A stretch of 64,000 bases of DNA from Prostheceraeus crozeri (taxonomy: Eukaryota; Platyhelminthes; Polycladida; Euryleptidae). The notes under the pieces are model-generated. The model was not told the origin of the DNA. It saw only the letters and a program-made list of their open reading frames with translations, and searched no databases. How positions within the stretch are numbered: the first letter of the stretch is position 1; every line of letters starts with the position of its first letter. Positions 37,133-57,993 of this stretch are shown piece after piece. Where the stretch lies: the NCBI GenBank assembly GCA_907163375.1, contig CAJQUW010001819.1:186001-250000 (forward strand), written 5' to 3'. The translations under genes and the position numbers were made by a program.

Positions 37133-38320
37133 TTAGAAAGACACATTTATACTGAAATCAAAATCAATTTGATCAATGGATGTATGAAAGCAATTACATA
37201 ATTTAGTCTTTGGTTTAGGCGGGTCTAGAAGGCTGCTAAGCATCACTTCTTGCTCCGGTCCTTTTCTTTATGCTTCAACAGCATTGCTTCGATGCCCAGT
37301 TCTTGATTTTATTAACTGCTCGTCTACATTTTCTCGGAATAGCCTTGTCGCACATGTTACTTTGCCAGAATGTGCCGTGATGTATCCTTTGATATCGGCT
37401 ATGGATGCGGCCTCCGGCAACAATTTTCTGATGGAATTGACTCCAACGGGATAAGTGGCGAATCTGGGCTGGTCTGGGATAATGTTTCGTAGTGGTCGAC
37501 GTTAAAATGCTCCCGTAAAAACACCCATGCTTCGAAGCCGGCTCACGTAAAGTTTCAATATCTTATATACCGATCGATTGTTATCGCTATCGTATTGTCG
37601 AACACGTATCTTGCGATCGCGGATTCCACCGGAAAAGACTTTGTTGCCGCGACCCGTGTACTCAACAAATTTCCCATGGTCGTCTTCTGAAAACGTGAAT
37701 TGCTCCAGTTGCATCTGGCGATGCTCGTCGCACGCTCTGAGCCCGAAAACTTTACAGTTGTAGAAGTAAACGGCCCGCAATAGTCCATTTCCATCATGTA
37801 AGGAAAATGCATTGGTATCCCATAGTTTCGCCTCACTATCCTCTGATATCGGATCAGCTCTCTTGTGATGGGATCCGATGCCCCGAGAAGTGAGATTTCT
37901 CATGCAGGCATCTAAAGCACGGACAAATTGCACAAAATTGAAATCCTCCTTATCCATTATATTGCAGTCGGGTCTTTCTTCTCGGATAAATCGGGCCAAT
38001 CCGCAAACAATATTGCAAATAGTATTGGGAGGATACTCGGTTCCATCCTGCCGTCGGATCTCGAATATAAAATGTTTCAAGGCTCTTGAAATGTCAGCCT
38101 TTGGAGCCGTCCACAAATCTGTTAGTTGGGGAACCAAGTAATCATTTTCTTGTGTTGTGGAAGATTGTTGGTTTCTCCAAGTGGCCCAATCTTCATATAA
38201 CTTTCTGCACCAGGAACTATTTCTAACGGTGTTCTTTGACCGTGAACATGAAACAACGCGATCAATGTCCTGAGACGACGCAATGGAAAATCGACTAGCG
38301 TCAAAGCTGTGGTCTGCCAT
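37133..38320 (-). pseudogene. Crypton-type tyrosine recombinase (DUF3504-like), two in-frame TAA codons
   Basis: The frame runs 396 codons from ATG 38320. Residues 1-272 read cleanly: RKLYEDWATWRNQ, the N-terminal core with RALKHFIFEIRRQDGTEYPP, then KLWDTNAFSLHDGNGLLRAV and FYNCKVFGLRACDEHR (catalytic Arg box I). A TAA at 37502-37504 follows FTGAF, where the family has F-Y-(R)-P-L. The frame continues RRPLRNIIPDQPRFATYPVG, AHSGKVTCATRLF (box II, HxxR now HxxK) and KSRTGHRSNAVEA, then TAA at 37268-37270 exactly where the catalytic Tyr (A-Y-K/R) belongs. Related domesticated proteins include KIAA1958, ZMYM and QRICH1. As read, the enzyme lacks its nucleophile. Confidence 0.75.
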
Positions 38321-39116: not shown

Positions 39117-39122
39117 AATTGT

Positions 39123-40170
39123 AGTAGTAAGCACATTCCAAATTCAATTCCAAAATGTGAAATGCTGAGTCATCAGGCTGACTCAGCCCCCCCCCCTCTG
39201 GAAGGAAGGTGAGGGAGAGGGCCAAGGATGTGCTGGGAGGAATGGGTCCGACAGGAAGAAACTGTTCCCTCCCCCCCTCTGGCAGGAAGGTGAGGGAGAG
39301 CGCCAAGGATGTGCTGGGAGGAATGGGTCCGTGAGGAGAAGACTGTTCCCTCCCCCCTCTGGCGTGAAGGAAGGAAGGAAGGAGGAGTGATGAGGCAAGG
39401 GGTGGAATCTCGGAAGGATAGAGTGAGAAAAGGGGGTTTTTTGGATGTTTTGGGATGAGAAAGTCCATTTTTCGGACAGAAGGAGACCTCGGATGGCAAA
39501 ATGGAGTGCAGATTCGGACTCTACGTGAAATTTTGGGTTAGGAAGGATGTTTCCAGCGACATTGGAGAGAAAAAGTTTTGAGGACGTCCCCCCCCCCTCC
39601 TGCCAAACTTCCAACTTTGGTGTAAGAGATCGTAGAAAGTCGTGCAATAGCTCATTTGAAAGCTAAGAGTGAGACAAATGCATTGGAAAGCTCAGTTTGG
39701 ACTAATTTTCTTGGGTATAGGGAGGAAAATGGCAGGAAACCGTCAGAGTTGGAAAAAGTCAGGTTTTGGAGGTTTTGGGATGAGAAAGTGGTTTTTCGGG
39801 CAGAAGGAGACCTCGGAAGGGAAAACGGAGTGCAAATTCGGACGTTTTGGTCAATGTTGGGTCTAGGAACTTCTTCCCAACTCAATCGGAGAAAAAAAGT
39901 TTTGACCCCCTCCCCCTCGGCAACGATCTTCCAACTTTGGTTGTACACATCGTACAAAGTCGTGCAATAGCTCATTTGAAAGCTGGGAGTGAGACAAATT
40001 CAGTGGAAAACATGGCTTGTTCCTACCTGCCTTCGTTTAGAGGTGAGACGTTATTGAAAATTTGGGACCTTGGCGAAAAACGACAGAGTTAGAATGTTTA
40101 TGAAAATCGCTCTAGCGGGTGAAGCAAGCCTCGGACGGGAAAACAGAGACCAAATTTGGCATCAGCGTGT
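39123..40170. repeat. Polinton left terminal inverted repeat
   Basis: About 1.05 kb, the reverse complement of the right end. It contains 2-3 diverged tandem units of about 300 bp, each with GTCGTGCAATAGCTCATTTG, GAGTGAGACAAAT and GGATGAGAAAGT..TTTTTCGG, separated by C runs (39187-39196, 39587-39597). The open frames over this stretch, on both strands, are by-products of the repeats and not genes. Confidence 0.85.
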
Positions 40171-40224
40171 CATGTTGCATCTGAATGTCATTTATGCTAT
40201 GTCTCCGAAGTGAAAGGAAGAAAG

Positions 40225-40647
40225 ATGACAGAAGCAGTAAAGTTTACGAATGAATTTTGTTCACTACGTTTTCATCGACAAAGTCTTCGTGGTGTGATTA
40301 GGGATTACATCATCTCCTTTCATCATGAAAAGGCAGACTTAGAATTTGCTATCGCTAAAGGTTACTTCGTTTTCCAACAGCTCATGGACAGTTTGATGAA
40401 TAAAGATGTGAAAGGACGATTAGTTGCAGAGATTGAATTTGAGAAAGTGACTGATGAACATGCAGGTGAACGTGTAGTGTTTCATTTTGCATCCTATTCT
40501 ACAGAGACGATACATGATCAAAACGATTTCTATCAGCGACACATGGCAAAAATTGCATCTCGACTACATTCATTTCATGAGCATGGATCCAACTTGCTCT
40601 TATGTCGCATAAAACACATTCATATTCAACTCAATGTGTTAAACTAG
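40225..40647 (+). CDS. Stand-alone paralog 1 of the PolB N-terminal domain
   Basis: About 140 residues. I start it at ATG 40225 (MTEAVKF...) rather than the upstream in-frame ATG at 40156, because paralog 3 starts at the matching place. Key segments: CSLRFHRQSLRGVIRDYIIS, DVKGRLVAEIEFEKV, FHFASYSTETIH, NDFYQRHMAKIASRL and HEHGSNLLLCRIKHIHIQL. They line up with paralog 2 (split by piggyBac), paralog 3 (54132-54584) and a region of the polymerase around 51.8-52.2 kb (LRLSKFSLERLVRDYQLE ... IRIASCAADLIGDVNEWVER). No catalytic motif visible. Role unknown; a DNA-binding or priming partner of the polymerase is only a guess. First gene inside the left TIR. Confidence 0.7.
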   Translation: MTEAVKFTNEFCSLRFHRQSLRGVIRDYIISFHHEKADLEFAIAKGYFVFQQLMDSLMNKDVKGRLVAEIEFEKVTDEHAGERVVFHFASYSTETIHDQNDFYQRHMAKIASRLHSFHEHGSNLLLCRIKHIHIQLNVLN

Positions 40648-40746
40648 ATTCGACTACAAGATTTGGGAAAAGCATTCATGAGTCAGACGTCCGCGTGCCT
40701 CCTTTTCCCTGCCGCAACGAAGTCAGGGGAGAAACGGAGGTCTCTG

Positions 40747-40792
40747 ATTGGCTCACATAGTGTCAAATGTGGATTCGCAGGAGATTATAAAA
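40747..40792 (+). promoter_or_regulatory. Promoter: inverted CCAAT and TATA box
   Basis: ATTGG at 40747-40751 and TATAAAA at 40786-40792 precede a probable transcription start near 40817. A donor-like ACAAGTGAGT with GT at 40912 and an acceptor TTCTTTCGTTGCAG ending 41268 would splice the leader to the next gene. Confidence 0.55.
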
Positions 40793-40920
40793 GCAGACGT
40801 CTCCCCATTTTCTCTTCATTTCATTCTCTTGACTTGGAAAGCGTGTGTGACTTGCTGAAGCCATTCTCCCCTCTCAACTTTGTCTGATCAATCCTGTTTG
40901 CCAATTTACAAGTGAGTGTC

Positions 40921-41151
40921 ATGACTGTCTGGCCTAAACCTTACCAGCATTTTAGAAGAGAGACGCAGGAGAGTGTGTGGTCGATGATTGTACAAGCTTA
41001 TTTTGTTGAACCATCACCGCCACCGCCTCCACCACCTAGACGCTTTACCTTTAAGTCTTTTAGGGAATTGAAACTCAATTCGGGTCCTTAGCCCAAGACA
41101 TTTAATTTACTGGACGATGACGAAGACTTAGACTTTGGTGACAATCTTTAA
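40921..41151 (+). CDS. Small proline-rich, acidic-tailed ORF with an in-frame TAG
   Basis: A 56-codon frame from ATG 40921 (MTVWPKPYQHFRRETQES...) contains a run of seven prolines (VEPSPPPPPPPRRFTFKSF). It ends at TAG 41089-41091. The same frame then gives an acidic stretch (LLDDDEDLDFGDNL) before TAA at 41149-41151. The coherent proline-rich, basic, then acidic order on both sides of the TAG suggests one former protein of about 76 residues. It lies inside the predicted intron of the following gene, so it may also be chance. No family recognised. Confidence 0.35.
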
Positions 41152-41274
41152 ATCCTGTGAACGCTCCAAAAGGTCCTCTTAAGGGGCACCTCATATGTCA
41201 CTGCTAAGCTAACAATTTTCTTTTCTCTGATGATCATGAATGTACTTAGTGGTATTCTTTCGTTGCAGACTGCC

Positions 41275-41958
41275 ATGGCCATGAATCCTACTCCAACTGC
41301 TGCATCACTGTATCCTCAACATCTCGAGCTGTGGAATCCGAAAATTGAAAAGGTAATTCACGGCTATCCTACCTACAAACAACAAGTGCGTTACAACGGT
41401 GTTCGACTCTATCTTCAAACGCCGGCGGTATACTTACAAAAAGTGGATACGCAAGTAAATCGTTGCGGTCAAAACCTGAGTATTCCTATTGATAATTGGT
41501 TGCGTCAGCAGCTTGACATTTTAGAAGACGTTGTGAGGCAAAAGGCTCTTATTCCTACTGAACTATTACAGTTGTGGCCAGAAAAGAAAACTTCTTATTA
41601 TAAACCATTGTATCGCGGCACTCGCTGCTATATTTTACAAAACAAGTATTGTAAAGTCACTTCAGGAGTGACAGTTGAACAATCAGTTGAAACAGAATTG
41701 TCATCGTTAAGTGCAGGCTTTTATTCATTTCATATTGAGGTGCCTGCTGTTTATGTGGGACCTCATCAATCTGACGGGAATTTGATTTCTCTCAATTTGC
41801 GCATTGCTCAAATTCATCATCAACCTGAGTTAACAGGACTTGATCACATTGAGAAAGTCATTGATTCTTGTGTCAAAGAGTGTCAAGAACCTGCCACTAA
41901 ACCTAAACGTCGTCGCGCATCAAAGAAAGATGGTGCTACCACCAAAGAGAAATCTTAA
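41275..41958 (+). CDS. Unknown Polinton protein A (GFYSFHIEVPAVY family)
   Basis: Start chosen at ATG 41275, in strong context (GCCATGG) just after a predicted 3' splice site; the upstream in-frame ATG at 41230 lies in the intron. The product is 227 residues: a mid-part IPIDNWLRQQLDILEDVV, a C-terminal beta-rich segment AGFYSFHIEVPAVYVGPHQS, then DGNLISLNLRIAQI, and a basic tail (KPKRRRASKKDG). It is a diverged paralog of the gene at 45741-46345 (PLDYW..., GKGFYSIEIKIQTIYMGP...). No membrane span or signal peptide. A nucleic-acid-binding role, such as single-strand binding next to a DNA polymerase, would fit the basic tail but is not shown. Confidence 0.6.
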   Translation: MAMNPTPTAASLYPQHLELWNPKIEKVIHGYPTYKQQVRYNGVRLYLQTPAVYLQKVDTQVNRCGQNLSIPIDNWLRQQLDILEDVVRQKALIPTELLQLWPEKKTSYYKPLYRGTRCYILQNKYCKVTSGVTVEQSVETELSSLSAGFYSFHIEVPAVYVGPHQSDGNLISLNLRIAQIHHQPELTGLDHIEKVIDSCVKECQEPATKPKRRRASKKDGATTKEKS

Positions 41959-42109
41959 GTATTGTAATCAGTTAGTATGTAGTGAATGTGGAAAACGCGG
42001 CCTTGCGCGTTATGTTCAAATAAAACATTGTCATCATGTTGTATGTATATTTTGTTATGTAAAGAACCGACATCCTTGTAAAGTTTCTGCTCAATGTATT
42101 ATTTTGTAA
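41930..42109 (+). CDS. RING-like cysteine-rich mini-protein
   Basis: A 59-codon frame overlapping the end of the preceding gene by 29 bases in another frame. It has C-x2-C (VCSECGKRG), then HCHHVVCIFC giving C-x-H-x2-C-x2-C, then RHPCKVSAQC. This is close to a RING finger with an atypical last pair (C-x5-C instead of C-x2-C). It could be a separate ubiquitin-ligase-like protein or the former C-terminus of the upstream protein after a frameshift. Confidence 0.45.
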   Translation: MVLPPKRNLKYCNQLVCSECGKRGLARYVQIKHCHHVVCIFCYVKNRHPCKVSAQCIIL

Positions 42110-42464
42110 TGAAGTCTTTTTGATATTGTAGGTTGTCATCTTCATAGACAGTGAGGGAACACCCATGCAGGAAATGAGTGCTATTGCAATGAGAGAAAGT
42201 GATCAAACTGTTGTTAGTGTATATCATAGATTGCAAAACTCTCTTCACGCTGGCATTGTAGTCTCTATGACGTTTATGAACTGTATCTATATTATTGTCA
42301 ACAGCATGGGTCTATGTAAAACATGTTTTTGCTCCTTGTGAATGAATGATGATCATTTATGAAGTGTATTCTGTACTTGTGAATTTTATCTGGTATTGAA
42401 TAGACTTACAGTGGAACATGATTGTTATTTCTGTTTTATTCATAGTGGAAGTCATTGAAGCAAT
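42110..42464. other. Polinton internal spacer
   Basis: Spacer between the RING-like ORF and paralog 2. No frame or promoter stands out; the next gene probably starts at 42465 or 42489. Confidence 0.4.
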
Positions 42465-42582
42465 GTGAAATCTATAGTTACAACGTTTATGATGGCGCAT
42501 CGTACCTTAAGTAACCACATGTGTCATTTGACACTTGATCAACAAGGATTCGATGGATTTTTACAAGATTGGAAACTTACAT

Positions 42583-45088
42583 TTAACCCTTTCGATCCTA
42601 TGACGACACGTTGTCGTCACGCTTACATGCGCTATGACGACAGCGTGTCGTCATGAGAAATTTTGCTAACTGTTTAGGCGTGAAGTATTCCAGTTGCTTG
42701 TAAAACACGTTAGATGTTGTCTTTAGCGCATATTATGTGCAAACCAACTATATTTAATAGAATTAACCGCTGTAATGGTACATGTACATGTAGTAGGTTA
42801 CATGTACACGTACATCAAGTCTATTGAGGGCAAGTAATGCATTAGTTTCATGCTGCTGCGATCAGCTGTGTCTTGTGTTTCTGCTGTCTTTACATGATCT
42901 GATTGTCGGCAATACAACTCAGCGGTTGCAGTGCGATGTCACCTGCATTCAGTCGAGCCACACATGAAGCATATTCAAAGTATTGACTGATGGTGATTGT
43001 ATAATGACGTCCGGTAAAGATTGCGCGTGGCTGATTCGTTGTTAGATAGAGCAGCTAGCACGGTATATTGTCATTTGTCACAACTAATTTCTGATCATTC
43101 TTTCAATGGCAGCGGCACCATCAAGTAGTACCAGGCACTCAACACGCCGAGTGCAGCCAGTCCGTCGCTATGGTTTTGATTCCGATAACAGTGAAGACGA
43201 TTCGGACAATGAAGATACGACTTTTGATCCTCCCCATATTACAGATGAGTCGTCTTCTGATACCGATTCTGATGGCAGTGAAGATCTAGAAGCAAGTGCC
43301 GAAGATGGGTGGACTATCATCGAGCCGACAGATGTCAGTGATGCAACTAACTTTGTGTTTCTTGGAGAGTGGGGCTGGACAGATACGGAGATTGACAGTA
43401 TCGAATTTACTGTGAGAGATTACATAATCAAATTTCTACCAGACAATTTGTTTGAAACCCTCACAAAATGGGTGAATGACCGTGTCCTTATTGAAAATCT
43501 TCGAATGATGGAGGAAGAGCAAGAAGAAATGCACTGGAAAAATTTTACTATTTTAGAAATGAAGACATTTGTTGGTATTACTCTTCTAATGGGCATCATC
43601 GTAAAGAAACCCACAATCAGATCTTACTGGCAAACCGAAGAAATGATGACAACTCCCTTCTTTTTGCAACCAAAGTGTCTGAGTCGTGACAGATACATCG
43701 CTATTCTGAGATTCCTGAGATTCTCGGATCCATTTGCGGTGGACCCATCCAAGAAGGAAAGCAGACTCAGTGGTTTCTTCTCTATTGTGAATGATCTTTG
43801 TTCTCAGTACCGACCACTTCAATCTCTGAGTTTGGATCAAAGTCTTGTATTATTCAAGGGAAGGCTTTCAATCAAGATGTTTATTCGGACGAAAAGATCC
43901 AGGTTTGGTGTGAAGTTATTCATTCTTGCAGATAGTACGGGATACATGATTTATTCTCAAATCTATGTTGGCAAGGATACCTGTTATGAAACCGGTGAGC
44001 CTGGTACTGAGGCGCTTTCGAATAGTGAAAAGATAGTCGTTCGATTACTTTCAAAGGCTGACATGCTTGACAGGGGATACGTCCTGAATATAGACAATTG
44101 GTTTACAAGCTTGCGGCTGATAGAGTACCTTCTTTCGAGAAATACGGGTGTTCGTGGAACAGTCAGACCGCAAAGAGGAATTCCAAAAATTCTTATTCAA
44201 AAGAAACTGCAACCTGTGTCATCGGCATTCGCTGAAAAGGACCGAATAGTAGCGGTAAAATTCTGTGACAGAAAGGATGTTTATCTGATGCCCACGTGTG
44301 ACAACGCTTCTCTGGTGCAAAAAGAAAGGATTTCCAAGGGCAATGTTCGAACCAATGTTCTCAAGCCATCAATTGTCGAGAATTACAATCAAGAAGAGGG
44401 AGGGATAGATCTCACAGACCAAGTTATTCGTCAATACAACTGCGCTCGCAAATCGCATGCCTGGTACAAGAAGATCGGCCTGAATTGCATTCTTCGGCTA
44501 CTTTTCAATTCATGGGCTGTATACAGAAAAGAGAAAGAAAGCAACGTGAGTTTCTTTGACTTCCTAAGGGATGCCATACGAGTCTTGACAGATTTGCAAT
44601 AAACACCAAAGGGAGCCAGAAGAAAAAGACGACCATCAGAGGAACAGCGCACGACTACACATGTGCAAAAAAGAATCCCATCCACAACTGGCAAGAAAAA
44701 TCCATTGAAGCGTTGCCGTGTCTGTTTCAGCAACGGAATCAGAAGAGAATCACGATACATCTGTGATTCGTGCCCTGACAAGCCTGGGCTTTGCCTTGGT
44801 GACTGTTTCAATAAGTTTAAACATGACTAATGTCCCACCAAGTGAAAATTTAATGATTTTTGTATTTTTTAAAAAATATAAATGTTTTGGATAATTTCGA
44901 CTGTTTTTGCATGTTTTCCGATGTTATGGGACTATTCGATCTATTTGGCATCTTATTTAGTGTTGGTTGTGGTCAGGACAACACTTTTTGGTCGAGTAAA
45001 CAGCATTTGAAAAATCCCGAAATTTTAGGATTTTTACAGGCAGCTACGGGAGGAAGCCATAGATGCGAAACAGGATCGAAAGGGTTAA
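42583..45088 (+). mobile_element. piggyBac element 2, near-intact, nested in the Polinton
   Basis: TTAA at 42583-42586 and 45085-45088. Inverted ends are CCCTTTCGATCCTATG (left) and CCCTTTCGATCCTGTT (right, read in reverse), 13 bp identical. Two palindromes just inside the left end (TGACGACACGTTGTCGTCA, then ATGACGACAGCGTGTCGTCA) look like transposase binding sites. 2.5 kb long, full length for the class. Confidence 0.9.
43106..44829 (+). pseudogene. piggyBac transposase, full length but for one in-frame stop
   Basis: A 498-codon frame, then a single TAA (44600-44602), then about 75 more in-frame codons to TAA at 44827-44829. N-terminal acidic region (DSDNSEDDSDNEDTTFDPPH). DDE_Tnp_1_7 core: SLDQSLVLFKGR (first Asp), RGYVLNIDNWFTSLRL (second) and EEGGIDLTDQVIRQYNCAR (third). 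After the TAA lies the C-terminal zinc finger region RCRVCFSNGIRRESRYICDS, then CPDKPGLCLGDCF. All catalytic acids are present. Loss of the cysteine-rich tail may reduce activity. Start at ATG 43106 (TCAATGGC). One of the youngest insertions in the window. Confidence 0.9.
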
Positions 45089-45688
45089 AATGAAGATGAA
45101 TGATATGAAAGTAGTGCTCACTGAAAGCCTTCCTCTCTTCAAAAGATTGATAGAGAGTTTACAACCTCAAGATGTAAAGGGTAGACTCGTTGCTTATATA
45201 CAGTTGAAAGATTTACAAAAACCACTTCGTTTTGGATCTTATTGCACAGAATGGATTACTCTTAGTGATCAATTTTATGGTCGTCATATGGAGAAAATTA
45301 TGGAGAGAATAGAAGAGACGTTGGAAGGAAATGCATACGTTGTTAAACATATCACGATTCAACTGACTGTGTTTACATCCACGACTTTGTTTGATCGTCG
45401 ACACATTGTGTAGATGCAATAAAGTTTTCTTTTCACTGAGTATTTTGTAATGGTGTATAGAGCAACATGAGTCATTGCGCTTTGTTAGATAAATGAATGC
45501 GTCTTTGTTCGAGAAAAGGGGCGTGTCGCAACATGAGTCATTGCGCTTTGTGCATTACTATCAGGCTCTTTGTTAGATAAATGAAATTGACCCACGCAGT
45601 CAAAAGTTCACGTGTGATAACTCTGTCACATGACAAAGACAGGAAAAACGAGAAAAGGGAAACGCATGTGAGTGGAGCTAGGTCTGCT

Positions 45689-45695
45689 TATAAAA
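45689..45695 (+). promoter_or_regulatory. TATA box for the protein-A paralog
   Basis: TATAAAA, only 16 bases before ATG 45711. A normal start site about 30 bases downstream would exclude that ATG and favour the next in-frame one at 45741. Confidence 0.5.
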
Positions 45696-45740
45696 CGAAC
45701 GACTGAGCGCATGGCAATCATTTCCGTCCTTGCGCTAACC

Positions 45741-46345
45741 ATGCAGTTGCTCGGAGCCATCAACTCCTCTGCTCTCGCACTGGGTACACTGAACTCCCTT
45801 ACTTTAGCATCGGGTAAAAATGCTTTCAATCAAAAGATAACTCATCATGGAGAAGCCGTAACCATAAAAACTCCAAGTCAACGGATAGATTATCTAAAGA
45901 TTATGTCAACAAAGTATGGACTGGCCGTGTGTGTGCCGTTAGACTATTGGACACGTTACAATTCAATACTCTTGAAACATTCCTGAAAGAAAATCTCACC
46001 ATTCCCAAAGAAATTGTTCGACACAATGGGAAGCGGCCACAAGTTCCCATCATGGAAAGACGATACATGTATGTGCATATGGATAGACACTGTCTCATCA
46101 TCCATGAAAATGAGGGCAGCGAATTCGACTTACTCAATTGCAAACCACTCCCCATTTTGGGAAAAGGATTCTACTCCATCGAAATTAAAATTCAAACCAT
46201 CTACATGGGTCCGCGCAGGGACGGAAGGTTGTTGACGTTGAATCCTTATCTTGTCTCCATCACCTTTAAAAATGATGTCCATGTTGATGATGATCACTAC
46301 AGTAACACTCTCCACACACTGAGAACGCACCATCGGTCTTTGTGA
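45741..46345 (+). pseudogene. Unknown Polinton protein A2 (paralog of 41275-41958), frameshifted
   Basis: The first frame (to 45986) has SQRIDYLKIMSTKYGLAVCV, then PLDYW. Between about 45947 and 45965 homology moves to the next frame (45929-46345): ETFLKENLTIPKEIVRHNGK, MERRYMYVHMDRHCLIIHEN and GKGFYSIEIKIQTIYMGPRR, then DGRLLTLNPYLVSI. The GFYS...YMGP...L.LN.....I pattern is shared with protein A. It lacks protein A's basic tail. Duplicate genes in one small element imply a dosage or subunit role; function unknown. Confidence 0.55.
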
Positions 46346-46381
46346 GACCACGGCCTAACGGCCACCGTATCAAGAAAGAAG

Positions 46382-46792
46382 ATGTACACTCACCATGCCA
46401 CACATGAACATGACTCTCCCTCTCCTTCTTTCTTAGGCATGCCCTTCTTCACTCAAGTTTTAATCATGTGGAAATTATCAGCATGGCTCCATGTATCATG
46501 GAAAAGTCAGTGTGTTACATTTCATGATACGAAACGTCAACTTCAGATAACTCTAGAACGCTTTCATCTACGAAGGTTACATCGCGCTATCCTATCCAAC
46601 TCTTGTCGTGTCATTAATGTAGGAGACGGCATTGTATTTATTCGCATTCAAGAGATGATTCTACATAATGATCACTACTACATTGTGATTCCAAAACCCT
46701 CATGGGAAAAGTATAAAAGGGAAGTTCACTCCACCCTCATGTCATTTGTGAGTCATGCTCCCCATCCGCATCATCAACGCCATGCGAAATGA
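46382..46792 (+). CDS. Unknown Polinton ORF upstream of the TBP-like gene
   Basis: 136 codons. A strong acceptor-like sequence (CTCCTTCTTTCTTAG ending 46435) lies inside, so the coding exon may begin there with the ATG at 46440 (MPFFTQVLIMWKLSAWLHVS). It has RQLQITLERFHLRRLHRAIL, then VGDGIVFIRIQEMIL and PKPSWEKYKREVHS. The stop overlaps the next start (ATGA at 46789-46792). No family recognised. It could be a diverged partner of the TBP-like protein. Confidence 0.4.
   Translation: MYTHHATHEHDSPSPSFLGMPFFTQVLIMWKLSAWLHVSWKSQCVTFHDTKRQLQITLERFHLRRLHRAILSNSCRVINVGDGIVFIRIQEMILHNDHYYIVIPKPSWEKYKREVHSTLMSFVSHAPHPHHQRHAK
46712..46718 (+). promoter_or_regulatory. TATA box of the TBP-like gene
   Basis: TATAAAA followed by GGG, 71 bases before ATG 46789 and inside the preceding ORF. 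A start near 46745 would give a short leader. Confidence 0.5.
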
Positions 46793-47292
46793 ATCTCAGA
46801 AGAGACATCGATTTAGAACAGTTGCATACCCATCTTCCCGATTCAGTCTATCATCGCGGTCGTCCGCAAATGTTGGTCATTCGCATGAGCAACGGTCGAA
46901 ATCTTCAAATCTTTCGCTGCGGCAAAATTCAAGTCCTAGGAAACCTTTCTCATTTCGTGATGCAGTCCATGTGTCACGAAGTCGTCAAGAAAATGCGAAC
47001 ACTCATGCCTCATCTCCGCCTGAGTCCCCTGACATTAAAGAATATAGTAGTGTCTGTTCAATTGAAGATGTTAGTGAATCTAGCCAACATTAAAACCAGT
47101 AATCATTGTATATTTTATGAAACTGAACTCTTTCCTGCTGCTCTGATTCGGAAGTGGCATCCTGTACATATTGCAGTGTTTCAAAACGGACATTGTATCA
47201 TGACTGGTTTACGTGATATCAGTAAAGTAGCTGACATTGTTAAATCTTTAATGCGTTATCTGTATGAGTCACAGTTAATAGAATCGTGTTAA
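46789..47292 (+). CDS. TATA-binding-protein-like protein
   Basis: 167 residues covering almost the whole two-repeat TBP saddle. Repeat 1: MNLRRDIDLEQL, MLVIRMSNGRNLQIFRCGKI, then QVLGN (family: R..ALIFSSGKMVCTG). Repeat 2: LTLKNIVVSVQLKMLVNLAN, FYETELFPAALIRKW and VHIAVFQNGHCIMTGLRD (family: KIQNIV.S......L, YEPELFPGLIYR, .LIFVSGKVVLTGAK). Of the four DNA-kinking Phe residues of TBP, three are kept (QIFRCGK, ELFPAAL, AVFQNGH); the fourth (LGFPA) is Met in TLMPHL. Host TBP nucleates RNA polymerase II initiation at TATA boxes. Viral TBP homologs occur in large DNA viruses. Here it probably serves the element's own TATAAAA promoters. Divergence from host TBP is high, and the frame is intact. Confidence 0.75.
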   Translation: MNLRRDIDLEQLHTHLPDSVYHRGRPQMLVIRMSNGRNLQIFRCGKIQVLGNLSHFVMQSMCHEVVKKMRTLMPHLRLSPLTLKNIVVSVQLKMLVNLANIKTSNHCIFYETELFPAALIRKWHPVHIAVFQNGHCIMTGLRDISKVADIVKSLMRYLYESQLIESC

Positions 47293-47329
47293 TCACATGA
47301 TGTGTTTTGAATGAGTCATCGCAATGAAC

Positions 47330-47590
47330 TATCGCCCACACTCTTGTCGGTGAAAAGGTCATCAACAAGGTTCTTCGCTTTATGATGAGTCAGCCCTATT
47401 TATAGACATGAAATGATGTCCACACACTTGTCGGTGAAAAGGTCACGCTGTCTGACGTGAGGCGCCATCGATGTTGAATGAGACGCCCACACACGTGTCG
47501 GTGAAAAGGTTGAACAAGACTGATTAGATTCGTATGACTGGCGCGTTACCACCTCATGAGTCAGAGCTATTTATAGACATGAGTCAGCAA
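47330..47590 (+). promoter_or_regulatory. Triplicated TTGTCGGTGAAAAGGT boxes with two TATA/TGAGTCA units
   Basis: Three copies of CACAC..TTGTCGGTGAAAAGGT-like sequence lie at about 47337-47360, 47411-47444 and 47488-47510. Two units of ATGAGTCAG.GCTATTTATAGACATGA lie at about 47384-47412 and 47555-47583. TGAGTCA is an AP-1-type site and CTATTTATAG a symmetrical TATA-like box. No large ORF follows on the plus strand, so the target transcript is unclear. Confidence 0.45.
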
Positions 47591-47639
47591 AGTGGTTGAT
47601 GTTTCCTAAGCCGAAGAAATTGCCATGATGTTACATTCG

Positions 47640-48335
47640 CTGGTGAGGATGTTAACTTACAAACTCTAACATGGTTTTGAATTTATTTTATACTTTACCT
47701 ATCTTGCAAATAGTGAAATACTTATGACTTCATTTTATATTTCACCTATCTTACAAACTGTACAAACAGTGAAATGATTTTAACATTAATTCAAACTTTA
47801 CAATCATCAACTTTATTTCTAACTTTACGAACAGTGAAGTGATTCTAACTTCATTTACATTTCACCTATCTTACAAACGGTGATATGGTGATAATTTTAT
47901 TTCTAACTTTACAAACGTCAACTTTATTTCTAACTTTGCAAACAGTGAAGTGATTCTAACTTCATTTATATTTCACCTATCCTACAAACAGTGATATGGT
48001 TATAACTTATTTTATACTTTACCTATCTTGCAAACAGTGAGATGATTTTAACATTAATTCAAACTTTACAATCATCAACTTTATTTCTAACTTTACAAAC
48101 AGTGAAGTGATTCTAACTTCATTTACATTTCACGCATCTTACAAACAGTGACATGGGTACAACTTTATTTCTAACTCTACAATCAACAACTTTATTTGTA
48201 ACTTTACAAACAGCGAAGTGATTCTAACTTCATTTACATTTCACCTATCTTACAAACGGTGATATGGTGATAATTTTATTTCTAACTTTACAAACGTCAA
48301 CTTTATTTCTAACCCTACCCATCTTACAAAATGAT
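47640..48335. repeat. AT-rich tandem-like repeat array in the Polinton
   Basis: Words such as TTTCTAACTTTACAAACAGT, then GAAGTGATTCTAACTTCATT, then TACATTTCACCTATCTTACAAAC recur four to six times at 110-160 bp spacing. 48217-48300 nearly duplicates 47847-47925. The array separates the plus-strand genes from the 3' end of the polymerase. A 23-bp repeat (GAAAACAAAGTCACTCATGT plus CAGG) follows at 48509-48570. The 110-codon frame at 48264-48596 lies across these repeats and is probably not a gene. Confidence 0.7.
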
Positions 48336-51300
48336 CAAAACTTTTACTTCTATCTATTGAGTGAGAATCCCACCTTTATGTCAAAAGGAAAACAACACAG
48401 TGTGTACATGATATGTTTTTCATCATCACAACCGATTTTCATAGCACCGCACATAGTTAATACTGATGGTAGCAGAAAACAAAGTTTTTATGGCTCACAT
48501 CACCGTAGAAAACAAAGTCACTCATGTACAGGGAGAAAACAAAGTCACTCATGTGCAGGGAGAAAACAACGTCAGGAAAAACCAGTTGATATGTAGGTCA
48601 TGATATGAAGTGATCAGGAGTTGGGCGCATCTTACAAGGCACTCACTCACAACGCCCCATAGAAAACGCCATTGAGCAAAAAGCAAAACATCAACCACAA
48701 CAGAGAGGAAGTATTTATCATCAGAGATCGCCGGACGGAGGAGGAGAAAGTTTCTGTCTCTTGGGTGGAGGTAGATGAGTGTCTGGATGGCCGTACGGTA
48801 ATGAGTGATTAGGACTCATCCAGCATCGCTTGTCTTCCCAAGCTGAGAGACCTTGTTTCCTAAACGTCGTTCTTCTGACTTGATGCGACTGTGATCTTAA
48901 AATGGTCATTTCTACTTTTTTGATTTTAAGAGAATCTAAGGCATCTTGATAGTCCCTATGTGTCATTTTTCTAACGATTGACTTCGAGATGCCTTTCGCT
49001 CGTTTTATAGAAAGCTCTGAGGATTTTAGCTTCATGGAGTACATCTTGGGGAGAAGCAAGATCATCTCCTTTATCTGTTTGCCGGCACACTCATCCTTGA
49101 AGCAGCCAAGCTTCGCTTTATTTGAGGTAGAGTAAAGCGGATGGTCAGTGGGATAGTTGGAACTATCAAACTTGGGTGCTAAATATTTTAAAATGTCGTC
49201 CTGCTTGACTTGGCTCGTGGTTGTCAAAGCTAGGAAGAACATGTCTGTATCACCTCCTACTAATTCCACACGTTGGAGAAGTGGACATGTCTTAAAAGTG
49301 TTGTAAAATAACTTGTGCATTTTTAACTTGGAGTGATCCAAGACAGCTTGACCCACATAAATGGGCTTACAAAGTTCTACTTAAGATTTTAACATTTTAA
49401 AACCATTGATGTCTTCGGAAATAACATCATGGTGGCAAAACAACGGCGAGCGACATAACTTGATACTCGTTCCCGGATCAGTTACGATGCGATAGTCCAT
49501 GCGCTTTCTTACATCCTCCATGGTCTTACCAAAGAGGGCATTATTCTTAAATTTAAAGAAGTCCTTTTCGAAAGGATTCTTGGATTCAGCCCGTTTCTTG
49601 CTATTAAATTCTATATACGGTTTTAGAAAGGGCTTCTGCCTAAACTGGATAGCGCGATGGACTTTATCAAGTTGCATCCCCATACCTAGATAGAATTTGA
49701 GGATGGAATAGTGCACGATGTAATGCTGCTTGTTCAATTGGGTGAGCAACAACTTCCTAGTGGCTTTATACTTTAAGTCATTTTCCGCCTCATATTTCTT
49801 ATTGTGTTCTTCCATAAAGGGAGAGAACATATCTGGACTGACTATGCCAGATTCGGATGTCAGAGGAAAATCAACGGTCCTATTCTTAATGCAGTCTGGA
49901 TAGATGAGCTCGACTTCAAATAAATAACCTATGTCGGCCTCATCTCTCAGTGACATGATGTGTGCTGGATTGGAGAAGTGTTCAATGTCATGGGGCTCTA
50001 CCCATTGGAAGTCAGACTGTGGCAAAGGCTTGGAGAGTGCACTCCCATACAAATTATTTTGGTCTATGTACATTAAATGCGTGGTCGATCCTATGTCTTG
50101 GGTGCTGTTGACAACATGTTTGTTAAAAAATGTCAAGCCACACCTAATACCACGTTCAAATAACGTATACATTTCTGCATCTTGCAGTAAATGAATGCTT
50201 TCTTTCGTCATCTTGAAGGCTGACTGATAGGACAGACCCGGCAGACTAACAAAATGAACGGAGTCTAAAGCGTCCTGTTCTAATGGAACTTTCCTAAAAG
50301 TCTCAAACACGTCAGCCAACAGATAGACGTCTAATTTTAAGTAGGCAAGCATGTAGTCACCAAACGTGCGGCACCTAAATTCTAACCATGCTTGCTATGC
50401 ATGCCTATAATCATCCAGCGAACAGTCCTCACCCGTCAAATCATTTTCAAATTTATCGATGGACGGAAGGGATGTCTCTTTCAATGTATCCATTGAACTA
50501 AAATAACTATAAGGCAACACCCCTTTCCGTCGCATCAGACTGTCACTTATGTTGGGATAGTCTTTTTTTAAATGATGAGTGAGGGGAAGTGTTTCTAAAT
50601 TATTAGCCAACGCGGCTAAGGAAGAAGACATAAACTGGAAACTGTCTAGAAACTTTATGTCATAGAAGACAGGCTTCCCCTCCTTCGTCTTATCGACTTT
50701 GACTTTAGCAGTGATGCGCATAAATTTTTCCTTACTTTGTGCAATCACTTTGGATGACTTTCATTTTACCGAATCCATGGCGAATGATGATGTGAGCATC
50801 ATAGCATTTGAAGTTATGAAAGAGGACGGGGAGCGTTCGCCGTTTGAGCCTAAGTTTCATATTGCATTTACTGCATAAGGCAGACCTAAATTTACCACTG
50901 AGATGGCAATGGTCCCTCACTTTCTTATGTTGCTGATCATGAAAGGATGAACAGCAGCGGGGACATTCCGTGGTCTTATCAAATTTGATTTTATCGGCTT
51001 CTGTGAAGCACATTGGCTTCCTAGTTAGCTCCGTTTCATAGCGTTGATGAAAACGGGCTTTCCTATCTAAAAAGTTGAGGAAGTCTTCAACGCACTCCTC
51101 GCCTTGCCACACATGCATCTTATTTTGACTCCTATAATATGGATGCCAAACTTCATAACAGGCAATGGCTGCTGGCTCATGACTTAGGTCTTCTTGTTCA
51201 ATATAACATTCAATGTCCGCATAGATGGTACATATGGGACTGAGCTCATTGCCGTTTTCTTCATACCTACAAAATTTATCTTTGGGCATGACTTCCATTT

Positions 51301-52749
51301 GAAGTTTACCCCGAGAGCACCACTCGTAATGCTCTTCAAAAAATGCTTTTGATGTGAAACGCCGTGTGCAGCGATCACAGTAATAATGTTTGTCATCATA
51401 ACTTTCTTGGTGGCGATACAATCTAGAAATTTTAGGAATGCCACAATAATGGCATTCTGGGTGGTTGTCGCTATAGACTAGGAGAAGACTGACAACCCGC
51501 TCGAAGTTACTTTGGCGATTATTGTACCTAACACCCTTCAGATCTTTTTCCCAGAGATGGACGACAAACTTAATATTATTCAATTTTTCAAATTGGGCGA
51601 TGCCTTTAAAGTCTAATGTGTTGACATCTAACCCGTCAAACTTAAGCTCATCATCCCATTCACAATACTTGGTGACTCTTTGACGATGTATACCTACATC
51701 ATTATAGTGAAGAATGGAGAGGACGGCATACTTGAAACACTGGGACTGACATTCTACATTGATGACAGCCTTTTTGTCAGCCAGTGCTTTGGGGAGGGTG
51801 AAACAACCGCTCCCTTGTAAATTTTCTAAAAGATTTATTTTGATGTCTACCTTCTCTATCCCATCAAAGACCAGACCGCTGTCTCTTTCATTAAATTTAT
51901 TTAAATTGCTGACGAGATAGGTCGCATGTCTCTCTACCCACTCGTTTACATCACCTATGAGATCAGCAGCACAGGAGGCTATCCTAATGGTCACAGTGGA
52001 CTCTACTTCTCCCGTGCTACTGTCTACCTTATTGAAACGAGCAGTGGGATAGAACATGCCCTTAAGTAAAAATCTATCTAAACTTGCCAACATTTGATGA
52101 ATTAAGCCTATATGATTCATCAAGAAAGGATGAATGTCCTGCACAGCTTCAGAGCTTTCTAACTGATAATCGCGAACGAGCCTCTCAAGGGAAAACTTGC
52201 TCAGCCTTAGAGTGACGTTGTTGTCAGTGTAAACCTCAGTGGGATGAGTGTGACAGAGTGTGTGTGAAGAAAGAACAAACTCTGTAGGAAAGGTCTTCTG
52301 ACACGAAGAACAGGAAAAGCCGACGTGCGATGAAGGATGCTTCCTACCTGTTGTTGTCGGTGGTTGCCTCACACTGCCACAGGAACCGCCTTCGATGTGG
52401 ACTCGCAAGTTGGCGCTGTTGTAGAACGTGCGCCTACAACCTTCACACTTGGGCCGTTGAGGGATCGGTCGCCGCTTTCCTCCCCTGCAGGCGCGCCCAG
52501 CGGTGTGACGTCTCAAACTGTAGGCTGAGGCGAAGACCCCGTCACACCGCTGGCATCGAAAGTCCTCCTTCTTTTCGACTTCTATCTCCCTCTCCTCTCC
52601 GACGATCTCCAACTCCTCCTGCTCCAACAGTCTCTCCACCGACTTGACGGAGAGGAGAGGGAGGTCGGCCGCTGCAGGTGGTGGTGGCGATGCAGGGATG
52701 ATGATGGGACGGCAAGGAACGTCACCGTCCAGGAGGAAGGCCGCCAGAT

Positions 52750-52840
52750 CTGTTGAGAAAAAGAGAAAAGAGATTAATAACATGATCAACATTTCAAGTT
52801 TGAAGTCTTAGCCCCCCATTTCCCAATCACGGTTACTTAC
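52750..52840 (-). other. Predicted pPolB intron 3
   Basis: On the minus strand, donor GATG|GTAAGTAACC at 52840 and acceptor TTTTTCTCAACAG ending 52750. 91 bp; phase 1 on both sides. Confidence 0.65.
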
Positions 52841-53128
52841 CATCTAAGGACTGTAACTCCGGCAGCAGGGATGGACGCGGAGGAGCCAGGAGAGGGACGC
52901 GAGCCGAGGGTGGAAGGGTCCTGGGCTTTGGTGTCGGAGGGACGTGGTGACGAGGAGCAGGGACTGGCGCAGGTACCGGAGCTGGTGGCGGTGGAGGTGG
53001 GGCGATAACGATGCCCGAGAAAGGGGTCGCACCTTGGGCGGAGGTAGATGAGCGGGAAGGTAGGGTCGGAAATTCCTCACGGTATTTCCGCCTCGCGGCT
53101 TCCTCCCACTTCTTCTTCTTCGCCATAT

Positions 53129-53218
53129 CTGTAGAGAGAAAAGAGAGATTAGATAATGAGACAAGGATGATGCAGAGGATCTGAAACATTATAAACATGA
53201 AATGTTAAAGATACTCAC
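53129..53218 (-). other. Predicted pPolB intron 2
   Basis: Donor AAGT|GTGAGTATC at 53218 and acceptor TTTTCTCTCTACAG ending 53129. 90 bp; keeps frame. Confidence 0.65.
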
Positions 53219-53293
53219 ACTTGCCAAGCCGCTCATAGGCTTCCCCGATTGCTCCTTGGGGGACGGGTTCCCCATTACGAATACATTCATGCA

Positions 53294-53440
53294 CTGAAAA
53301 AGAATGACGGCAAAGATGAGCAGAGGTAAATTTGGATTTGGTTTAAACATGAACAAAATAAGGGAGGGGCTCTTGATTTTAATGAGGATGTCTACCCTAA
53401 TGATGTTAGTAATAGAGTCAATCTTGTTACAAATACTTAC
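53294..53440 (-). other. Predicted pPolB intron 1
   Basis: Donor CAAT|GTAAGTATT at 53440 and acceptor ATTCTTTTTCAG ending 53294. 147 bp; keeps frame. Confidence 0.6.
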
Positions 53441-53540
53441 ATTGCTCGATGGTAGCCTTCTCCATCTCAGCAGCAATGCGATAATTTTCAATTTTTGCGA
53501 ATTCCATTTTTGTTCGATTACAGACAGCAGATTTCAATCA

Positions 53541-53992
53541 CTGAAAAGGAAAGATGAAAATCGTTTCATTTGCCTAGTCAACGTTTTGGAACAATCATTG
53601 AAGTGACATCTAATGAGTTACATCTCACTCTACTCTATATCATAAAGACTAACCTTTGTCGAATGGCTGAAGTACTCTGACCTGGCGAGAGAAAGCGTCA
53701 CGTTGAGTATGAAGTCAAACGCCCAACATGAGCAACGGCTCAGAGGTTTTGGTCTAATAAATGACGAACAACTCGTGCAACGCAATCACTCTACGGCAGT
53801 ACCCGCCGTCCCGAAGGAACGCTCGAGCAAAGGAGGTATTACAGCGATGATATGTTTTATGAGCATAAGATGTGATAGCAAGAGACTATTCAACTTGATA
53901 GCAAGTCAAAACAACCTGATGGCAGGAGATCACCGACACTCACCTTGTGAAAGATAACTGTGAAGAGCAGAGCTGGTGCACTGCCTTTTATA
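53541..53992 (-). promoter_or_regulatory. pPolB promoter and leader intron
   Basis: TATAAAA on the minus strand at 53992-53986, a probable start near 53960, donor ACAAG|GTGAGTGT at 53943 and acceptor TTTCCTTTTCAG ending 53541. This leader intron contains the first of three related repeats (see 53690-53950). Confidence 0.55.
53690..53950. repeat. Polinton internal direct repeat, copy 1
   Basis: Shared order with copies at 55420-55690 and 55775-55990: ACGTTGAG, then (in copies 1 and 3) CCAACATGAG and GGT(T)TCGGTCTAA-like words, then ATCACTACGGCA-like, then CGTCCCGAAGGAACGC-like, then TATTACAGC-like. The copies are diverged, direct, and tied to the polymerase promoter side, so they look like duplicated regulatory or replication sequence. 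Confidence 0.55.
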
Positions 53993-54131
53993 AGATTTTC
54001 CTAAGCGGTGAATGGATGAGACCTCTCGTCCAATCACAGACGAGCTAGAGTTCCCGATGTGCGCACGCACAATTGTAACGCGTCATTGAAATCGTGTTAG
54101 GCAAAAATGTTGTTTAGCAATAGACTCAACC

Positions 54132-54584
54132 ATGACACCTGAAGTCAATACATTGAAACATGATGATTGTACGATTCGCTTTCATCAAGAGAGCTTCGGA
54201 GGCTTAATACAAGATTACATCCTTGAGTTTCAAAGGGAGGAGACAGAATTGGAAGCATGTTTAGACTACACACGAAAAATATTTACGGAGTTAATATCTT
54301 ATTTCAAAGACAGTCTCATCAAGGCTCACTTAATTGCACATGTCAATTACACTCATTTTCCAAAAGGTGAAGTAGCGGAAAGTGTTGACTTTCAATTTCG
54401 TTCCTATGGACAAGAATATGTTACTGATGCTTCTGAGTTTTATACACGACATCTGCGGAAGATTATTTCTCGTATGGACAACTTTCACGGTTACGGCGAT
54501 CATTTGCTTCTGAATAAAATAAACCATATTGTCATTGCTATTAGTAAAGTGGGTTTCAATGATGTTAAATCAAAGACCAAATGA
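54132..54584 (+). CDS. Stand-alone paralog 3 of the PolB N-terminal domain
   Basis: 150 codons, intact. CTIRFHQESFGGLIQDYILE, then LIKAHLIAHVNYTHF, DFQFRSYGQEYVTD, ASEFYTRHLRKIISRMDNFH and GDHLLLNKINHIVIAI align in order with paralogs 1 and 2 and with the polymerase segment at about 51.8-52.2 kb. Start at ATG 54132 (ACCATGAC). It lies head-to-head with the polymerase gene, sharing the 53.5-54.1 kb promoter region, so the two may be expressed together. AATAAA occurs at 54766. No catalytic residues recognised. Confidence 0.7.
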   Translation: MTPEVNTLKHDDCTIRFHQESFGGLIQDYILEFQREETELEACLDYTRKIFTELISYFKDSLIKAHLIAHVNYTHFPKGEVAESVDFQFRSYGQEYVTDASEFYTRHLRKIISRMDNFHGYGDHLLLNKINHIVIAISKVGFNDVKSKTK

Positions 54585-54589
54585 AGTAT

Positions 54590-55200
54590 TTTTTCATGAC
54601 ACTTGTGTTGTGTTAAACTTTCTAGCGCTGTGGTGAACACTGTTTTCATATAACATTCTAAACTCTCATTGCAGTAGAAAACTGCTTTTAGTAAACCTGA
54701 TGAAGCTAATCTAACAGTCATGAAGTTTGAATTTTCTAATAAGGGAACATTTACCAACTGTCTCCAATAAAACTTTCTAACACTGTGAAAGTAAGTTACA
54801 AGACAATCTACACTGTGCAGTAAAACCTTTTCGATAAAACTTTCTAGTGCTGTGATGAGTTTGGTCAGTCATACAACGTCAATGATTAAACTTTATTTTC
54901 ACAAACGTGCGTTGCGGTAAATTATTTGACTACACTAACACTTGCATTTCATGACATCTGTGTTTCATAAAACATCATGATCAAACTTTTCTAACTATAC
55001 ATCAACCTGTGTTGCAATAAGACTTTTGCAAACCATGATACACTTTCTGACCTTTACTTTTACAAACATGTGTCGTAGTAAAAATAGTTGACTACACTAA
55101 CGCTAACATTTATGGCATTTGTGTTTCATAAAACACCATGATCAAACTTTCTAACTATACATCATCCTGTGTAGCAGTAAAACTTTTGTACGACACTGGC
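54590..55200. repeat. AT-rich direct repeats in the Polinton
   Basis: Units of about 165 bp: about 54894-55045 and 55062-55196 share TTGACTACACTAAC, GTGTTTCATAAAACA(C/T)CATG, ATCAAACTTT and CTAACTATACATCA. Earlier partial units repeat AAAACTTTCTA..CACTGTG. Wording resembles the array at 47.64-48.33 kb. Confidence 0.6.
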
Positions 55201-55419
55201 AAGAGCTTGTTCACTAGCGAAGAGAGAAGTCTGTGATGTGTTGCGTGTGGCGCATGAATGTCCTCCTTCTTTCCTTCATCATTTCGTCTCCGTGATAGAG
55301 GCAAGAAGAACTGATGGTTCATTCTCGCATGGTTGGCCAACTGTCGGGAGACAAGTGCAATGGAGATTTTATGAGGTAACCTGTGGCAGATAGCTAAATG
55401 TCGCCCTGGCGGTCAGAGT

Positions 55420-55990
55420 ACAACGTTGAGACGAAAGGCAACCACTTGCAAACATGACGCAGAGAAGTTTCACAAGGATTACCATTGACCACGTCCCATG
55501 CAGTACTCATCGCTACGGACTTCACCGCTGTCTCGAAAGAACGCCTGCCCACAGGAAGTATCACACCGAAAATCTCCGTGACTTGCACCGTCCATGACTT
55601 GATCGCCAGACATGAAAACCGGTGGAGTTATTTACAAGAGGAAACATCCCAAGTCGTTGCTTTGATCAGCTTGATAGCAAGCCGTAGAGAGCTTGATTCA
55701 CCAGCGTTTTGCAATGGAGATGTTTAGAGGCCACCCATGACAAGATAGCTAAGACTCAACCGATTGGCGTTCAAAGTGCTACGTTGAGAACTGTGTCAAA
55801 TGTCCAACATGAGACGAGTTGCCCCAGCGGTTTCGGTCTAAAATATGACACTCTCCCTTGCCACACTTATCACTACGGCATCGTCCGTCGTCCCGAAGGA
55901 ACACCCTGTCAGTGGAATATTACAGCAAAATTCTCCGTGTCTTGCTCGCTTTCAGTGAAAAGCTGCTTATACCATGAGAAGAATGGCTCA
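55420..55990. repeat. Polinton internal direct repeat, copies 2 and 3
   Basis: Copy 2 is at about 55420-55690 and copy 3 at about 55775-55990, both related to 53690-53950 as described there. The frames at 55485-55727 and 55709-56005 fall on the repeats and have no protein family signal. Confidence 0.5.
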
Positions 55991-56519: not shown

Positions 56520-57976
56520 GAATTTGACGCTGAATCCGAATCTGCCCTCCATTTTCCCATCCAATGCTTCGGTTTGGCTCTACAGCCCACAGCCATCGCA
56601 AAAATTCTAACTCGTTTTTCGGAAAAAATGATGAAAAATTTTTTCTCTCCGATGGCTTTCAAATTTAGCATGCCGAAGCAGAATTTGACGCTGATTCCAA
56701 ATCCGGTCTCTGTTTTGCCGTCCGAGGTTTGCTTCACCCGCTAGAGCGATTTTCATAAACATTCTAACTCTTTCGTTTTTTCGTCAAGGTCCAAAATTTC
56801 AATAACGTCTCACCTCTAAACGAAGACAGATACAAACAAGCCATGTTTTCCACTGAATTTGTCTCACTCCCGGCTTTCAAACGAGCTATTGCACGACTTT
56901 CTACGATGTCTACAACCAAAGTTGGAAGTTTGGCAGGAGGGGGGGACGTCTTCAAAACTTTTTCTCTCCGATGCCGCTGGAAACATCCTTCCTAACCCAA
57001 AATTTCACGTTGAGTCCGAATCTGCACTCCATTTTGCCATCCGAGGTCTCCTTCTTCTTCTGTCCGAAAAATGGACTTTCTCATCCCAAAACCTCCAACA
57101 CCTGCCTTTTTCAACTCTGACGGTTTCCTGCCATTTTCCTCCCTAAACCCAAGAAAATTAGTCCAAACTGAGCTTTCCACTGGTTTTTTCTCACTCTTAG
57201 CTTTCAAATGAGCTATTGCACGACTTTCTACGATCTCTTACACCAAAGTTGGAAGTTTGGCAGGAGGGGGGGGGGGTCAGAACTTTTTCTCTCCGATTGA
57301 GTTGGGAAGAAGTTCCTAGACCCAACATTGACCAAAACGTCCGAATTTGCACTCCGTTTTCCCTTCCGAGGTCTCCTTCTGCCCGAAAAACGACTTTCTC
57401 ATCCCAAAACCTCCAAAACCTGACTTTTTCCAACTCTGACGGTTTCCTGCCATTTTCCTCCCTATACCCAAGAAAATTAGTCCAAACTGAGCTTTCCAAT
57501 GCATTTGTCTCACTCTTAGCTTTCAAATGAGCTATTGCACGACTTTCTACGATCTCTTACACCAAAGTTGGAAGTTTGGTAGGAGGGGGGGGGGGGACGT
57601 CCTCAAAACTTTTTCTCTCCAATGTCGCTGGAAACATCCTTCCTAACCCAAAATTTCACGTAGAGTCCGAATCTGCACTCCGTTTTCCCATCCGAGGTCT
57701 CCTTCTGTCCGAAAAATGGACTTTCTCATCCCAAAACATCCAAAATCCGCCTTTTCTCACTCTATCCTTCCGAGATTCCACCCCTTGCCTCATCACTCCT
57801 CCTTCCTTCCTTCCTTCACGCCAGAGGGGGGAGGGAACAGTCTTCTCCTCACGGACCCATTCCTCCCAGCACATCCTTGGCGCTCTCCCTCACCTTCCTG
57901 CCAGAGGGGGGGCTGAGTCAGCCTGATGACTCAGCATTTCACATTTTGGAATTGAATTTGGAATGTGCTTACTACT
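56520..57976. repeat. Polinton right terminal inverted repeat
   Basis: Reverse complement of the left TIR, but longer because it holds at least one more of the roughly 300-bp internal units (unit boundaries near 56940, 57197 and 57540). G runs of 7-13 occur at 56938-56944, 57265-57275 and 57583-57595. Clear identity with the left TIR reaches inward to about 56680; related but diverged unit sequence continues to about 56520. Frames on both strands here are repeat by-products. Confidence 0.8.
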
Positions 57977-57993
57977 AATTGTTATCACGCCAC

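Follow-up and report, generated by a model that had tools for sequence, protein, structure and literature searches.

Polinton-type elements in the genome of the flatworm Prostheceraeus crozeri carry a gene for a two-lobed TATA-binding protein (TBP), which occurs together with pPolB in an amplified group of elements whose scanned ORFs showed no integrase (family A), and within a few kb of an rve integrase gene in a single copy from each of two diverged groups (families B and C). Polintons normally depend on host transcription; the many TBP copies, in several old lineages, suggest that these elements supply some of the transcription start machinery themselves. We consider it likely that an animal Polinton lineage encodes its own TBP, which would bend element promoter DNA, recruit host TFIIB and RNA polymerase II (Pol II) and start the element's own transcription. 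The gene came to light in the window, by which we mean the whole stretch of 64,000 nucleotides that was analyzed. The preliminary description of the window knew of no Polinton with a TBP; no such report turned up in the open-licence literature that we searched and, as far as that literature shows, the TBP is a real, undescribed part of the gene content of animal Polintons.

The window ORF is a real TBP, matched far above chance. It hit PF00352 with an E-value of 2.3e-20 and 72.6 bits (cut-off 22.9) in two stretches corresponding to both TBP repeats, and a phmmer search of the PDB matched 35 sequences at E up to 10, the best being 1mp9 (9.7e-11); all 35 are named as TBP/TFIID or as fusions with TBP/TFIID, except 4wzs_D, which bears a locus name alone. 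All 50 aligned element TBP rows matched the TBP family. The structural comparison with TBP proposed earlier turned out positive, as the AF2 model of a longer copy, P0062 (modeled in place of the shorter window ORF), is a two-lobed saddle with TBP matches in the PDB. A chance ORF is ruled out by the PF00352, PDB and family-alignment matches and by the predicted fold. The ORF had first been described as intact, with 167 codons and both TBP repeats; the ORF and both repeats are upheld by PF00352 and the PDB, but the N-terminus is cut. Compared with the window protein, P0002 is 99% identical and has 12 extra N-terminal residues, the first strand of lobe 1, which in the window sit in another frame (ORF 46755-47093), so that the window frame opens at an internal Met, without this strand. 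The protein is at least 170 aa long in 49 of 53 relatives, and copies with a longer open frame are present elsewhere in the same genome. By eye, the element TBP gene looks intronless.

Table 1. Features of the TBP-bearing element in the window (positions within the window)
Feature	Position	Strand	Remarks
Left target-site duplication AATTGT	39117..39122		sequence, end scan
Left terminal inverted repeat	39123..40187	+	starts AGTAGTAAGCACATTCC; minisatellite-like units
Free-standing 140-aa ORF	40225..40647	+	related to pPolB residues 193-327, blastp E 3e-12
242-aa ORF	41230..41958	+	paralog of 45818-46345, blastp E 1e-6; no Pfam match
Nested insertion with piggyBac-type transposase	42587..45084		missing at nine junctions in eight other elements
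piggyBac-type transposase, 498 aa	43106-44602		within nested segment; PF13843 E 9.8e-55
Second terminal-protein-type ORF	45063..45413	+	matches 40225-40647 and 54132-54584, not pPolB directly
p45818 ORF frame	45818..46345	+	kin of 41230-41958; first codons from 45711, another frame
p46382	46382..46792	+	directly 5' of TBP; in families B and C, homologs lie before TBP and overlap it
TBP homolog	46789..47292	+	167 aa, two lobes; this copy without first strand of lobe 1
pPolB, several broken frames	48721..52792	-	C2H2 fingers, terminal-protein-type domain, endonuclease VII-like region, polymerase
Third terminal-protein-type ORF	54132..54584	+	pPolB match (residues 193-327), E 6e-6
Right terminal inverted repeat	56669..57976	-	ends GCTTACTACT
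Right target-site duplication AATTGT	57977..57982		sequence, end scan

The element that contains the gene spans 18,854 bases (39123-57976), is bounded by inverted repeats, begins with AGTAGTAAGC... and ends with ...GCTTACTACT, and has AATTGT at both sides. A pPolB with an endonuclease VII-like region, inverted repeats and a 6-bp duplication are Polinton hallmarks, and in these respects the original designation as a Polinton-type element holds; it has to be qualified in that no integrase was found, pPolB is broken, the TBP N-terminus is cut and a piggyBac segment is nested within. Two other copies have a pPolB frame that is open across 1364 aa, in which family B polymerase motifs can be made out by eye; a sequence search returned 1274 related proteins, and eight of ten aligned pPolB pieces have a frameshift or stop. 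No Pfam match to an rve integrase was obtained among 20 ORFs (the window element and its copies supplied 19 and a neighboring, different polymerase the other, with some short ORFs of the window element outside this set), and the window copy is therefore classed as a Polinton-derived non-autonomous element. Likewise, no double jelly-roll capsid protein, packaging ATPase or protease was matched by Pfam among the scanned window-element ORFs, a search that was also blank for those ORFs of families B and C that resemble capsid and ATPase genes. The window copy is thus a defective, non-autonomous member, with a TBP frame that lacks the first strand. A piggyBac gene serves as the element's own mobility gene in Teratorn; that role is rejected here because the nested segment is missing from other elements (Table 1), and the 6-bp duplication at the element ends also speaks against it.

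The N-terminal domain of pPolB, D1, is the terminal protein according to PMC11071308. Three paralogous ORFs (starting at 40225, 45063 and 54132) are read as putative free-standing terminal-protein-type domains, a reading drawn in this analysis from a position match to the published pPolB domain map. The window element seems to hold several candidate priming proteins besides the terminal-protein domain fused in pPolB. A protein search with p45818 gave a single match, 98% identical. Between TBP and pPolB, at 47640-48340 of the window, lies an A/T-rich array of repeated words seen by eye, for example, TAACTTCATTTA and CTTACAAACAGTG.

The genome searched comprises 2.05 Gb in 14,165 contigs, and its COX1 gene can be read with the mitochondrial code of invertebrates. 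Family A, to which the window copy belongs, has at least 150 copies, the window included, with 96-100% identity; 148 of the 150 listed, which were picked by protein score, are free of stops. The best 150 rows of a search with the yeast TBP core include two host TBP exons (contig C9306) and a single TRF-like exon (C3829); of the other 147, again as picked by protein score, 140 are stop-free. Nine of the 147 (L052-L060) were inspected: by blastp against the window protein, three are 53-55% and six 42-46% identical (40-57% by tblastn), and families B and C are the names given to the diverged TBP groups among them. On contigs C1764, C6222, C381 and C6234 (the last two outside the fetched loci), TBP genes are paired in inverted orientation, 4-6 kb apart. 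The C1764 element (L025/L026, C1764:131975-144769) is palindromic, with ATGGAT on both sides, two TBP frames and most of pPolB lost, and its ends resemble those of the window element (3-4 mismatches in 23 bases).

For families B and C, one copy each was read, L061 (family B, TBP 55% identical) and L062 (family C, 46%), over 3.5 kb starting about 1.1-1.2 kb 3' of the TBP gene; the overall span read around the TBP genes of these families extends from 1.5 kb upstream to about 4.6 kb downstream. On the strand opposite TBP, L061 encodes an rve integrase (PF00665, E 1.5e-13) with a Chromo domain (E 1.5e-7), and L062 an rve integrase (PF00665, E 2.6e-11). Since an integrase lies near TBP in a copy of family B and in a copy of family C, TBP is not peculiar to family A, and the same kind of gene is present in other element families of the same genome; the preliminary description had asked for it in related genomes, beside pPolB. 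Further ORFs of L061 and L062 look, by their motifs, like three Polinton proteins: the major capsid protein, a small basic virion protein and the packaging ATPase. No such Pfam family matched these ORFs, and a PDB sequence search with two of them was blank. As objects of study, both families are better than the defective window copy.

In TBP, the L5.1 phenylalanines touch DNA, and a C-lobe glutamate pair, E186 and E188, touches TFIIB, as set out in PMC7221094. The window TBP keeps F116, F190 and F207 (yeast numbering) and has Pro in place of F99, in agreement with the three of four DNA-kinking phenylalanines initially noticed. Across the 50 aligned element rows, F116, F190 and F207 are present in every one and the F99 position is Pro in 49 and Thr in one, so that no row has all four phenylalanines. 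Both E186 and E188 are Glu in 50 of 50 rows, N159 is likewise invariant, and N69 is found in 46 rows, with Asp in one and a gap in three. Because F99 is replaced by Pro, the DNA bend made by the element TBP may differ. The glutamates that contact TFIIB are variable in viral TBPs, with about 40% conservation at one of them, and nearly all viral TBPs are accompanied by a TFIIB-like gene of the same virus, according to PMC7221094. No TFIIB came up among the ORFs scanned from the window element, its copies and the family B and C stretches.

In 36 copies of family A drawn from the TBP list there was no frameshift or stop, and TBP pN/pS was 0.14, but this sample was picked by best protein match and overstates constraint; eight other genes in the larger loci gave 0.22-0.63, and ORF468 (two copies) gave no usable value. 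A second sample was drawn from the best 40 rows matched by the non-coding spacer at 47293-47640, nine of which adjoin listed TBP rows (by eye, from coordinates). From the remaining 31, 20 copies were analyzed, the omission of the nine tilting the sample toward decay: six have a stop or frameshift, two are truncated and 12 are open over the stretch, although one of the 12 lacks a stop codon and two have in-frame deletions. TBP pN/pS in these 20 family A copies was 0.49. Strong purifying selection, as read from the value of 0.14, is accordingly withdrawn: that sample was biased. Many inserted copies are decaying, and the best sign of constraint is that certain residues stay invariant from one diverged family to another, not the value of 0.14.

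Element and cellular TBPs were compared in a tree of 24 rows (18 element and six cellular, with no large-virus TBP included): the element rows fell on one side of a branch in 200 of 200 bootstrap trees (support 100/99). The tree program warned of long branches, in respect of the host TRF exon with the element rows. Identity of the 18 element rows to the host TBP exons is 21-28% (23% over 151 aligned residues for the window TBP), whereas host TBP is 82% identical to yeast TBP over 154 residues. For the sequences compared, the element TBPs are shown to form one group distinct from host TBP. A recent processed copy of host TBP caught in a Polinton, which would be in keeping with the intronless look of the gene, is thus ruled out by the 23% versus 82% identity and by the tree split of element from cellular rows; public proteins also include related genes at 43-63% identity. 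We give this origin next to no credence; the preliminary description had named it as an outcome that would refute its reading. Two scans of viral contigs (IMG/VR), one using the protein as query and the other the family alignment, yielded no confirmed relative among 12 and 20 pattern matches, respectively.

In the mechanism that we favor, the element TBP would bind and bend A/T-rich element promoter DNA as an asymmetric saddle, using one Phe of the N-lobe and the intact pair of the C-lobe; it would recruit host TFIIB and Pol II through its two conserved C-lobe glutamates; and element transcription could start without dependence on host TFIID, to the benefit of the element. TATA-like words lie within 220 bases upstream of only three of ten genes of the open-pPolB copies, so these regions reveal no common element promoter; TATAAA starts 22 bases before the p45818 ATG. 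Apparent splice sites near pPolB, noted by eye, would fit nuclear Pol II transcription. In families A (p46382), B and C (L053, L058, and L060), an ORF 5' of TBP runs into the TBP gene in another frame. The family B ORF (L053) has 33% identity over 212 residues to p46382, a similarity that lies partly in the TBP overlap, where TBP's own conservation could produce it, and in L058 (family C) a second, related ORF precedes the partner ORF. The p46382 protein is possibly a cofactor. A PC4-like fold, guessed by eye, was dropped after Pfam and PDB profile searches gave no support (one Pfam row, E 0.22, was to another family). A broader and more tentative reading, to which we give perhaps one chance in three, is that an ancient, separately evolving, virus-encoded TBP lineage would be a core transcription gene of a major animal Polinton group, that together with p46382 it would make up a two-gene module for promoter recognition, cooperating with host TFIIB and Pol II outside host TFIID, and that derivatives without capsid and integrase genes would still have spread it to well over a hundred copies.

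The same residues could be read as those of a protein whose main target is the host. With its N-lobe altered, such a partial TBP might occupy host promoters or titrate TFIIB, damping or redirecting host transcription, and the retained TFIIB glutamates, the lost F99, the divergent N-lobe and the many copies per genome would all be compatible with this. Nothing specific speaks against it, but a multicopy element that harms host transcription should be costly; we regard it as unlikely. Reuse of the TBP fold in replication or integration, where it would bend the terminal repeats to aid pPolB or the integrase rather than start transcription, draws on the company the gene keeps, with pPolB and terminal-protein-like ORFs in family A and, in a single copy from each of families B and C, with an integrase gene nearby. 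Yet E186 and E188, the TFIIB contacts reported in PMC7221094, are invariant and would be superfluous for DNA bending alone, which makes such reuse decidedly unlikely.

Decay bears on whether the gene has any current function, since a fossil could have been amplified as a passenger of the element. The broken frames among the spacer-chosen copies and the frameshifts or stops in most aligned pPolB pieces are what such a gene would leave, but the key residues do not vary among the 50 aligned rows and nearly all listed rows are stop-free (148/150 and 140/147, picked by protein score and with nine of the 147 inspected). A functionless passenger therefore seems very unlikely to us, and transcription start at the element's own promoters remains the reading that we prefer.

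Among known systems, Polinton/Maverick elements and adintoviruses are closest in gene content: the window element shares with them pPolB with its endonuclease VII-like region, the inverted repeats and the 6-bp duplication, and family B shares with adintoviruses an rve integrase with a chromodomain (PMC11071296). The elements here differ from both in carrying TBP, and the window's family differs further in having no integrase or capsid gene recognized among the scanned ORFs and in having three free-standing terminal-protein-type ORFs. With host TBP and TRF/TBPL1 the element TBP has the two-lobed saddle in common, and its C-lobe Phe pair and TFIIB glutamates are as in TBP; it differs from host TBP in its low identity and in having Pro at F99 in all 18 rows compared. 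TBPs of large DNA viruses, mirusviruses among them, are likewise encoded by the virus or element, and TBP is a mirusvirus core gene present in 59% of genomes (PMC10132985). Set against published descriptions of these viral TBPs (PMC7221094), the element differs in the invariance of both glutamates and in having no TFIIB among the scanned ORFs. Poxvirus VITF-3, a TBP/TFIIB-like factor, also belongs to the closest known systems. If our reading is true, a TBP that retains the TFIIB contacts yet differs widely from the cellular TBPs in our comparison would naturally serve as an alternative initiation factor in an animal nucleus, with a bearing on routes to element-specific transcription, on how animals silence or tolerate Polintons and on the source of viral TBPs. 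One genome with at least 148 stop-free TBP frames of a single family, plus other families, is striking in itself.

Other mobile sequences lie around these elements. A second piggyBac fragment is found at 30978-31661 of the window, and the flanks at 27402-28822, 33224-33730 and 37502-38320 contain transposon-type genes matching DDE_Tnp_4, MADF and DUF3504/QRICH1, the last of which is presumably Crypton-like. Near the right end of the two open-pPolB copies is a 468-aa ORF (L016:7097-8500), and none of that length was seen in the window. A fragment of a different DNA polymerase B (DNA_pol_B_2, E 2.3e-11) is encoded at L013:1-1650, near the C6222 element; its identity to the window pPolB is about 31%.
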